64,000 nucleotides of DNA, from NCBI GenBank assembly GCA_029245795.1, contig JAQWOP010000021.1, positions 32,731 to 96,730 on the forward strand, in the 5' to 3' direction. Below are positions 33,246 through 61,781 of this stretch, piece after piece. Below the pieces are notes generated by a model. The model saw only the letters and a program-made list of their open reading frames with translations, was not told the DNA's origin and ran no database searches. Each line of letters starts with the position of its first letter. The stretch's first letter is position 1. The stretch is from Hyphomicrobiales bacterium. Its GTDB lineage: Bacteria > Pseudomonadota > Alphaproteobacteria > Rhizobiales > TMED25. Made by a program: the position numbers and the translations under genes.

Positions 33246-34259
33246 TTATTGATTTCCTGACAATATATTTTTCAAAATTTTTAAATCATCAGGTAATTCG
33301 GATTTAAAAGTCATAATTTCATTATTTGTAGGATGCATAAAAGTTATATTTTCCGAATGAAGTGCATGCCTTTTGCATTGGCTAAGGATCTCTTGATCTT
33401 TAATATTTGATAATTGTTTCATTTTTGTATTAAAGCCTTTTCCATATTTAGCATCGCAAATTACAGGATTTCCTATGTGTTCTAGATGAACACGAATTTG
33501 ATGTGTTCTTCCTGTATATAGTTTACAACGTAATAATGAAGCTAATGGATCATTCTTTTTATCAAAATATGTTTCTATAGTTTCATATTCTGTTATTGCT
33601 TTTCTTCCCTTTAATGGATCTCTTAATACCATCATTTTTGTCCTGTCAGACATACTTCGTAAAATTTGCGTCTCGATTCTATGTGTTCTTAATTTAGGGA
33701 TTCCCCATACAAGCGCTAAATATATTTTTTCAAGTTTTCCTGTACGTCCCTGCTCTGAGAATTGTTTAGATAGATTGTTATGGGAGAGGTCATTCTTAGC
33801 AACAATCATTAGGCCACTAGTATCTTTATCAAGTCTATGGACTATTCCGGGTCTTCGATACCCACCAATCCCCGATAGTGAATCTCCAGAATGATGAAGG
33901 ATTGCATTTACTAGAGTACCGGATTCTATGCCAGCTCCAGGATGAACAACAAGATTGGCCTGTTTATTGATTACTATAATATCTTTATCTTCATAGACTA
34001 TATCTATTGGAATATCTTCAGGTAATGGTTTCAAATCTATAATTTTTGGTATAGTTATTTCTATTTCTTCTTCACCTTTTATTCTATATTTTTTAGAATT
34101 TATAATTGAGTTATTTAATTTTACATAACTTCCTTCAATAAGATTTATTATTCTTTGGCGGCTAAATTCTGTATTAATACTGATATATTGATCTAACCTT
34201 TTGCCGACATCAATTTTTTTTGTTATAAGATGTATAATATTATTTAAAACTTTATTCAT
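33246..34259 (-). CDS. rluD: Pseudouridine synthase, RluA family (RluD-like)
   Basis: S4 domain; GIVHRLDKDTSGLMIVAKND; LYTGRTHQIRVHLEHIGNPVICDAKYGKG. Confidence 0.92.
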   Translation of the reverse strand: MNKVLNNIIHLITKKIDVGKRLDQYISINTEFSRQRIINLIEGSYVKLNNSIINSKKYRIKGEEEIEITIPKIIDLKPLPEDIPIDIVYEDKDIIVINKQANLVVHPGAGIESGTLVNAILHHSGDSLSGIGGYRRPGIVHRLDKDTSGLMIVAKNDLSHNNLSKQFSEQGRTGKLEKIYLALVWGIPKLRTHRIETQILRSMSDRTKMMVLRDPLKGRKAITEYETIETYFDKKNDPLASLLRCKLYTGRTHQIRVHLEHIGNPVICDAKYGKGFNTKMKQLSNIKDQEILSQCKRHALHSENITFMHPTNNEIMTFKSELPDDLKILKNILSGNQ

Positions 34260-34270
34260 ATTGATAAGAC

Positions 34271-34603
34271 ATGGAAGAAATAGAAAATACTGAGCAAAAT
34301 ATAAAATCTACTAGGGTTCTAAAATTAGCTATTCTAATTATGACATTATTATTAATCATTGGTTTTTGTATAGTTTTTCTAACAATTGGTTTTAGGTTAT
34401 CAAACGGTTCAACAAATCAAGATCCAATTATACCCTTAAATAATAAAATAACAATTGAAGCTAATCAAGAAATTCTCTTTATAAATGATGGTGGAAAGAA
34501 TATTCTCATAACTCTTAGCGATGAAAAAGGTAATTATACTATTTTAAATATAGACAAAAGAACCAACAACATTAAATCTACCATAGATTTAGATAAAAAA
34601 TAG
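34271..34603 (+). CDS. Single-TM hypothetical protein (possibly DUF6476-like)
   Basis: One TM helix and a short C-terminal domain; divergent from rluD as in related alphaproteobacteria (recalled). Confidence 0.55.
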   Translation: MEEIENTEQNIKSTRVLKLAILIMTLLLIIGFCIVFLTIGFRLSNGSTNQDPIIPLNNKITIEANQEILFINDGGKNILITLSDEKGNYTILNIDKRTNNIKSTIDLDKK

Positions 34604-58294: not shown

Positions 58295-58915
58295 ATGAAT
58301 TTCCTCTCAAATAATGAAATAAGAGATAAACTTCTTCAAGAACTACCAGAGTTTGATAATTCATATAAGAGTAAATATAGTATAGAAAAACTTTATTCAA
58401 CTATAAATGAAATAAGATATCGTCATGCATCAGTTCTTATTCCACTTACTGTTTATAACGATAATATCCATATAATACTGACTCTGCGCTCGATAAATCT
58501 TCCTACACATGCTGGTCAAATATCTTTTCCAGGTGGTAAGGTTGATGAATATGATATGAATCCAATGAGGACTGCATATCGTGAGGCAGCTGAAGAAATA
58601 GGGCTTAATGAAGATTTGATATCTCTTCAAGGTTATTTAGATATTTATAGAACTGGAACAAAATATATTATTTTGCCGGTAGTTGGTTTTGTATCAGAAG
58701 ATTACGAACCAAAATTAAATAAAGGAGAAGTAGAAGATCTCATATATCTGCCTCTAGATTTTATTGCAGATAAATCAAATTTACAATATAGAGAGCAGGA
58801 AATAAACGGTGAAAAAAGATTTTTTTACGTATATGAATATAATGATCATTTCATTTGGGGAGCAACAGCACATATGTTAAAGTCATTATCAGAAAGGCTT
58901 TTTGAGAATGATTAA
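58295..58915 (+). CDS. NUDIX hydrolase (CoA pyrophosphatase-like)
   Basis: ISFPGGKVDEYDMNPMRTAYREAAEEIGL. Confidence 0.92.
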   Translation: MNFLSNNEIRDKLLQELPEFDNSYKSKYSIEKLYSTINEIRYRHASVLIPLTVYNDNIHIILTLRSINLPTHAGQISFPGGKVDEYDMNPMRTAYREAAEEIGLNEDLISLQGYLDIYRTGTKYIILPVVGFVSEDYEPKLNKGEVEDLIYLPLDFIADKSNLQYREQEINGEKRFFYVYEYNDHFIWGATAHMLKSLSERLFEND

Positions 58916-59174
58916 ACTGCTTGTATTTCATATTTTAATATTAATATGCCCGTTTTTCATAATTAGTATATTCTATTGTTTAATAGGAAAATATTCTAAA
59001 CTTAGAGAAATTCCAGATCGCTATGGTTATAAACTTCTAGTTTTGGGATTGTTCATTTCAATTACAATATTCTATTTAAACCCAATCCTATCAGGTTCTT
59101 CAGTCGACAATAATTATATTCCTCCATATATGGAAGGTGGAAAAATTATATCAGGAACTATAAAAGAAGAGTAA
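58902..59174 (+). CDS. Small membrane protein (DUF6111-like)
   Basis: Two TM helices; overlaps the NUDIX gene and precedes cca. Confidence 0.6.
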   Translation: MRMIKLLVFHILILICPFFIISIFYCLIGKYSKLREIPDRYGYKLLVLGLFISITIFYLNPILSGSSVDNNYIPPYMEGGKIISGTIKEE

Positions 59175-59192
59175 TATTATCGGAGGAAAGAA

Positions 59193-60473
59193 ATCCAGTT
59201 AATAGAAAAATTCTTCAAAAAAAAAATTGATATTAGTGATCTTATTGATGAGGATATTAGAGAGCTAAAACTTTTCTTTGACACTATTGGCTATAATTTA
59301 TGGATAGTTGGAGGAGCCGTCAGAGATTGTATTTTAAATCTAGAAATTCAAGATATTGATTTTGCAACAGACGCGAATCCCAACGATATTCTAAAATATT
59401 GTAATAATTCTAATTTTAAGATAATAAAGATTGCTAAAAAATATGGTTGTCTTGTTTTTATAAAAAATAGAAAACGATTTGAAGTAACCAGTCTTCGTCA
59501 GGATATAAAAAATTATGGAAGAGGCGTTGATGTTAAATTTACTCAAAAAATAGATGAAGATTCTAAAAGAAGAGATTTTACAATAAATTCCTTATATCTC
59601 TCTTTCGGAGGTGATTTATATGATCCATTAAATGCCTATGAAGACCTTATAGACAGGAGGATTATATTTATAGGTAAGGCGAAAGATAGGATTAAAGAAG
59701 ATAATTTAAGAATCCTACGTTATCTAAGATTTGCAGCAAAATTTGGAACAGAAGGTATCAAACTTGATGAATTACAAGTTTGTATTGATCACAAGAATTT
59801 ATTGCTTAGATTGTCAAAAGAAAGAGTAAGAGATGAAATTCTAAATTTCATCTCATGTTTGAAATCATCAAAGGTAATCAAAGTTCTATCAGTACCAACA
59901 TTCTTTGATGTTATCGGACTTAAAGTAAATGATTTCGTACATATCAATAATCTCAACAAGATAAAAGATAATATAGATTTTGATATTTCAATAATCTTTG
60001 AATTTGCATTGGCTCTTGATAAGAATGAAGAAATTATAAGTCATCTTACAATGATGAGGGACCTAAAATTTAACAAAGAGAACATAAAATTTATAACAGA
60101 AGTACTCTCTTTTAAAGTTTGTAATAAAATAGAAATTGAACGAAGTATCAATCTTACTATCTATAAATATGGCATTGAGATTACTAAGTATATGGTTATA
60201 AATAGCTGGATATGGGAAAATAATTCATATGAATTAAATGATTGGAAAAATTTATTTAAATCAATTGATGATAGAAATAAATTAGTTTTTCCAATTAAAC
60301 CAAATGATTTAATTAATATTGGTGTACCTCAGGGACCTAAAATTGGAAGTTTATTAAATTATCTAGAAGAAGTTTGGATTGGAAATAATTGTGATTCTAG
60401 TAAAGAAGAGCTAATTCAATTAATAGAACGATACCTACCAACTCACAATAGGGGGAAGGGAGGACAAGATTGA
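59193..60473 (+). CDS. cca: CCA tRNA nucleotidyltransferase / poly(A) polymerase family, probable non-canonical (AUC) start; ORF track gives only the C-terminal part (59802-60473)
   Basis: In-frame translation upstream of 59802: ...NLWIVGGAVRDCILNLEIQDIDFATDANPN...SKRRDFTINSLYLSFGGDLYDPLNAYEDLIDRRIIFIGKAKDRIKEDNLRILRYLRFAAKFGT. GGAGG at 59182-59186, ATC at 59193. Confidence 0.85.
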   Translation: MQLIEKFFKKKIDISDLIDEDIRELKLFFDTIGYNLWIVGGAVRDCILNLEIQDIDFATDANPNDILKYCNNSNFKIIKIAKKYGCLVFIKNRKRFEVTSLRQDIKNYGRGVDVKFTQKIDEDSKRRDFTINSLYLSFGGDLYDPLNAYEDLIDRRIIFIGKAKDRIKEDNLRILRYLRFAAKFGTEGIKLDELQVCIDHKNLLLRLSKERVRDEILNFISCLKSSKVIKVLSVPTFFDVIGLKVNDFVHINNLNKIKDNIDFDISIIFEFALALDKNEEIISHLTMMRDLKFNKENIKFITEVLSFKVCNKIEIERSINLTIYKYGIEITKYMVINSWIWENNSYELNDWKNLFKSIDDRNKLVFPIKPNDLINIGVPQGPKIGSLLNYLEEVWIGNNCDSSKEELIQLIERYLPTHNRGKGGQD

Positions 60474-61316: not shown

Positions 61317-61781
61317 CTAACAATTAATTTGCCTAATAGCTTCACTTAATATTATAGCGCAAGAGTTTGCTACATTAAAAGATCTAATCTCATTTTGCAT
61401 AAAGATCTTGATTCTGTTATCGCAAAGAATATGAACATTATCTGGAACACCTGAACTTTCACGTCCAAATAAAAGTATATCATCTTTCCTAAAGTTAAAA
61501 TTTAAGTATGAAACTTTAGACTTAGTTGTAGCAAGTATTATTCTTCTCGATTCATTAATAGCCCAACTATGGAATGCATCCCAAGAAGTATGTTTTTGAA
61601 GTTTCAAGTGTTGTATATAGTCCATTGCTACTCTGTTAACCCTCTTATCATCAATATGGAATCCAGCTGGTTCAATTATATGAAGTGAGACACCAAAGCA
61701 AGCAGACAATCTCATTAAAGCTCCTGTATTTTGTGGAATATCAGGTTGGTATAAAGCAATTGATAAATTATTTTTTGTAAT
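61317..61781 (-). CDS. trmL: tRNA (cytidine(34)-2'-O)-methyltransferase, probable non-canonical (AUU) start; ORF track start at 61715 truncates the protein
   Basis: In-frame upstream extension ITKNNLSIALYQPDIPQNTGAL joins MRLSACFGVSLHIIEPAGF; stop TAG lies directly before the ATT; AAGGA 7 nt upstream. Confidence 0.85.
   Translation of the reverse strand: MTKNNLSIALYQPDIPQNTGALMRLSACFGVSLHIIEPAGFHIDDKRVNRVAMDYIQHLKLQKHTSWDAFHSWAINESRRIILATTKSKVSYLNFNFRKDDILLFGRESSGVPDNVHILCDNRIKIFMQNEIRSFNVANSCAIILSEAIRQINC

Follow-up and report, generated by a model that had tools for sequence, protein, structure and literature searches.

Reading frame and identity of the cca gene

The 64,000-nucleotide stretch of Hyphomicrobiales DNA analysed here (the window) contains a cca frame, 59175-60470, for which the site where translation begins has to be asked. 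The frame opens after a TAA codon (59172-59174) and, as the initial annotation had claimed and a re-reading of the frame agrees, shows no ATG, GTG or TTG until TTG 59802, 209 codons in. Canonical start codons represent 3.8% of the codons inside window genes, and 209 codons without one have a probability of about 3e-4; of 64 long frames in the window that do not overlap, cca is the only one with more than 29 codons ahead of its first canonical start. The nucleotidyltransferase core was also said to precede the first TTG, with which two results agree: the motifs IVGGAVRD, DIDFATD, RRDFTINSLY and EDNLR are all upstream of TTG 59802, and the Poly A polymerase head domain (PF01743) is found at residues 42-163 of the frame (92.4 bits vs a cut-off of 23). 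A gene caller limited to ATG, GTG and TTG would report a C-terminal ORF of 223 amino acids (59802-60473, + strand) without the catalytic head, the inactive fragment that the initial annotation had foreseen. TTG 59802, with an SD of -0.7 kcal/mol and the catalytic head lying ahead of it, is not a plausible start. The reading preferred here, with a probability of about 0.9, is that of an intact gene for a class II CCA-adding tRNA nucleotidyltransferase (59193-60473, + strand; 426 codons from AUC plus the TGA stop), whose translation would start at AUC 59193.

Besides the head domain, Cca contains PF13735 (33.2 bits vs a cut-off of 27) and the catalytic motifs GGxVRD, DxD, RRD and EDxxR, present as IVGGAVRD, DID, KRRDFTINS and KEDNLR. 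Its best solved relative is the mitochondrial CCA tRNA nucleotidyltransferase 1, an entry which we take to be human (E 1.9e-44, residues 14-419). No NCBIfam equivalog cut-off was reached by Cca, the best model being NF009814 (182.6 bits vs 290); this model covers less than the enzyme class, and the solved structures closest to Cca are those of CCA-adding enzymes. CCA-adding, as opposed to A-only, activity is a predicted assignment. No other cca homologue was found in the 1.36-Mb, 95.5% complete genome, which is alphaproteobacterial and belongs to the Rhizobiales, among relatives of the TMED25 MAG.

Shine-Dalgarno sequence and proposed start codon

The proposed start codon, ATC (59193-59195, + strand), is preceded at 6 nt by the Shine-Dalgarno sequence GGAGG (59182-59186, + strand), and these coordinates agree with those of the initial annotation. 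With -9.5 kcal/mol, this SD is stronger than those of all first canonical starts of the 64 window frames, the next one being -9.3; SD energies assume the anti-SD tail ACCUCCUUA, since the 3' end of the 16S was missed in these assemblies by a search which also fails to find the 16S in several well-known genomes. An SD of similar strength at such a distance is found for only 0.37% of the AUH triplets in the window. The motif GGAGG alone is not rare there (63 observed vs 51 expected), so the SD argument depends on where it lies in the two species. The start region shows no unusual folding (z -1.34).

The second species is the one represented by contig NHCE01000003.1 of Rhizobiales bacterium TMED25 (G003), an independent assembly, which encodes the closest relative of Cca, with 63% identity. 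Its cca frame also lacks a canonical start until a TTG at codon 127. The window leader reads TAA TATTATCGGAGGAAAGAA ATC CAG TTA ATA GAA AAA TTC TTC AAA, and the G003 leader reads TAG TATTTTGGGAGGATAAA ATC CAA ACA ACA GAA AAA TTC TTT AAG. Both show the same ATC (L002 in G003) 5-6 nt after a strong SD: GGAGG-N6 in the window and GGGAGG-N5 in G003, with -9.5 and -10.2 kcal/mol, respectively. The check proposed in the initial annotation, alignment of the upstream frame with relatives, thus recovers an ATC conserved behind its SD. The distance from the stop codon to ATC is 18 nt in the window and 17 nt in G003, and this 1-nt difference leaves no common reading frame in the leader before ATC. A canonical start hidden by a sequence error, which the initial annotation had named as what could overturn its proposal, might be suspected since the genomes compared are draft assemblies; G003 equally lacks a canonical start, in an independent assembly of a different species with different flanking bases, and the probability of such an error is therefore close to negligible. 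Apart from the G003 record, a search of genome contigs with the Cca protein gave only a distant, unrelated match, so a third species with an AUC start was not available.

Initiation at another in-frame AUH codon ahead of the catalytic head is quite improbable. Three such codons are found, ATA 59202, ATT 59226 and ATT 59232, and the initial annotation had put AUC first, with ATA 59202 and ATT 59226 as alternatives. ATA 59202 is replaced by ACA in G003, and the ATT codons show no SD (+2.2 in the window and -1.4 in G003) and lie downstream of codons under selection. Codons 11-21 of the window and G003 encode eleven identical residues with synonymous changes only (TTC/TTT, AAA/AAG and AGT/AGC), and two of these changes are ahead of ATT 59226, so translation would begin upstream of it. 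Given the SD and ATC shared by both species, the ACA of G003 in place of ATA and the missing SD of ATT 59226, initiation at AUC 59193 is strongly supported, and AUC is the best-supported start codon that we can infer; of the earlier candidates, AUC is kept, and ATA 59202 and ATT 59226 are dropped. The A10 run at 59217-59226 was considered as a slippage site; it is broken in G003 and yields no alternative start.

Cca differences between the window and G003 amount to 16 at second and 39 at third positions per 100 codons, second positions being the most conserved, and the codons after ATC are evidently under selection. These counts bear on the proposal that cca is a decaying pseudogene, or is expressed as a C-terminal fragment only, from TTG 59802. 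Loss of the enzyme might be tolerated, as CCA is encoded by all tRNA genes read, and cca is less conserved than its neighbours between the window and G003. Against decay, the cca frame runs uninterrupted for 426 codons in both species, with intact motifs and the second-position conservation just given; against the fragment, TTG 59802 has no SD and its place is not conserved. Since cca is also below the neighbouring trmL in a comparison of the window with G001, which bears an ATG (43% for cca vs 67% for trmL), nothing points to special decay of the window cca, and both forms of this proposal are very improbable.

Neighbouring genes

Upstream of cca, the window shows a gene encoding a NUDIX hydrolase (CoA pyrophosphatase-like; 58295-58915, + strand), the first of a likely operon, and a gene encoding a DUF6111 small membrane protein (58908-59174, + strand; PF19606 with E 2.8e-4, just under its cut-off), which overlaps the end of the nudix gene. 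The same gene order is found in G003, and the DUF6111 gene is likely co-transcribed with cca. Its TAA stop (59172-59174, + strand) is 18 nt before ATC. Coupling of cca translation to that of DUF6111 would form part of the best explanation of the start.

The DUF6111 and cca genes of the window are in one frame with this single TAA between them, an arrangement that would also suit a DUF6111-Cca fusion produced by readthrough or frameshift, with no separate start. The G003 genes are not in one frame, which leaves no readthrough that would work in both species. Moreover, the short gap between both genes shows no conservation at the protein level, yet a strong SD is conserved there. Such a fusion is thus highly improbable, at the edge of the credible, and a separate start at AUC 59193 is preferred.

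Origin of the proposed AUC start

The comparison covered eleven further genomes of the genus and two others of the family; no match to cca was found in one of the former, which is 53% complete. In the nine other same-genus cca genes, an ATG is located three codons upstream of the ATC position; six of these nine read ATG GGA AAA ATC, and the ATG-started genes of the genus show a weak SD, from -2.4 to -2.7 kcal/mol. Among 81 alphaproteobacterial cca genes in which the catalytic motif could be read, from a survey of the order and class that left out 18 loci in which it could not, only two lack a canonical start: those of the window species and G003. These two genes group together on one side of a branch supported at 100/99. 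The simplest history would be a derived AUC start that goes back to one loss of ATG, with a strong SD arising where the ATG had stood; the ATG of every other branch, the outgroup genus among them, points to loss rather than gain. This loss would have occurred in the common ancestor of G003 and the window species, and the strong SD now overlaps the old start position.

The initial annotation had suggested a low-efficiency start conserved across the enzyme family; this is not supported, given its presence in only two of the 81 homologues and the ATG of the other same-genus species. The AUC start of cca would be convergent with that of pcnB and not inherited. One base change would be enough to bring back ATG, yet AUC has persisted in two species whose Cca proteins share only 63% identity, which is mild evidence for selection or, at the least, for a start that is good enough. 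As sister species keep the ATG, the exchange of a strong start with a weak SD for a weak start with a strong SD is directly testable.

Initiator tRNA and expected yield

The initiator tRNA of the genome (L166) is of the ordinary type with anticodon CAU and would pair with AUC with a mismatch at the third position. An altered initiator tRNA reading AUC was also considered; the one found has the CAU anticodon. The near-maximal GGAGG SD between the DUF6111 stop and AUC would place fMet-tRNA (CAU) on AUC. In S. aureus, strong SDs direct AUA and AUU starts with about 10% of the AUG yield (PMC13009471), and AUH starts reach 5-20% of AUG in clostridia (PMC9680021). In E. coli, with one 5' UTR, AUC, AUU, AUA and CUG give 0.1-0.3% of AUG activity (PMC9680021), and IF3 disfavours weak third-position pairing in vitro (PMC10158994); from these two results, AUC efficiency could be very low. 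The yield of Cca is probably reduced, well below that of an AUG start, which would be tolerable if the enzyme is needed for repair alone. The 3' CCA is encoded in each of the 30 distinct tRNA genes of the genome that were read (L150-L179), so Cca probably acts only in repair of tRNA ends and a low yield would be bearable.

Other likely AUH starts in the lineage

The infC gene (L031 in the genome of the window, G000:C2:178443-178940) starts at AUA, preceded by a good SD, in all 14 family genomes examined, and in other Rhizobiales its start is probably AUC or AUU. Just downstream of cca, a gene encoding a trmL-like tRNA methyltransferase (61317-61781, - strand; L114, L115-L117) shows no ATG, GTG or TTG before the conserved first strand in the window. 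ATT 61781-61779 has AAGGA 7 nt upstream, and the same arrangement is found in G003. The same ATT after AGGA is present in G001, G008 and G010, where the only GTG sits within the first strand and has no SD; G004, G007, G011, G012 and G013 show ATG, and G002 shows GTG. This trmL probably starts at AUU. The trmL of G005 (L120) has one A fewer than the sister species, which leaves the ATT out of frame; a homopolymer error would explain this, or else the gene starts elsewhere.

In a comparison of 141 homologous frame pairs, covering about 97 kb of the contig that holds the window against one G003 contig, no other evident AUH-start gene was found, and most of the other flagged pairs were judged by eye to be antisense or short leader frames. 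A pseudouridine-synthase-like gene (33249-34307, - strand) shares with G003, unchanged, 13 of the 16 codons that precede its first ATG, possibly owing to an upstream start or an overlapping feature. It is unlikely, although conceivable, that infC (AUA), trmL (AUU) and cca (AUC) form an SD-led AUH set responding jointly to the IF3 level; if they did, this marine lineage would have a small IF3-sensitive set of tRNA-maintenance genes.

Comparison with known rare-start genes

Rare AUH starts are, to our knowledge, known for very few bacterial genes. The cca gene shows the two features expected of them: no usable ATG, GTG or TTG before the conserved protein, and an ATC at SD distance in both species. 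Gene callers limited to ATG, GTG and TTG miss AUH starts, and here a tRNA enzyme would be cut to an inactive fragment. The precedents named in the initial annotation, pcnB and infC, are apt, the more so as infC has a conserved AUA in this same lineage.

The E. coli pcnB gene, encoding poly(A) polymerase I, starts at AUU (Binns and Masters, 2002, as cited in PMC9764084). It resembles the window cca in belonging to the nucleotidyltransferase superfamily, in its rare AUH start and in the low dose expected. It differs in combining AUU with a poor ribosome-binding site (PMC9764084), whereas cca combines AUC with a very strong SD, and cca encodes a CCA-adding type of enzyme and its start has an independent origin. 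The likeness to infC lies in an AUH codon behind a good SD (AUU or AUA; AUA in both S. aureus and this family), but the rare infC start is common to the whole family and the AUC of cca is confined to two species. In E. coli, the rare infC start is autoregulatory (Butler et al., 1987, as cited in PMC9845219), and there seems to be no reason to expect the same for cca. The S. aureus genes ccpN (AUA) and cvfC1 (AUU) also show an extended SD and a non-canonical codon conserved between species (PMC13009471); they are unrelated genes in which initiation was measured, whereas that of cca is deduced from sequence (PMC13009471 for the former). On these features, cca is a new and independent case of the known rare kind of start of infC and pcnB, and the superfamily of pcnB would have reached a rare start a second time, independently.
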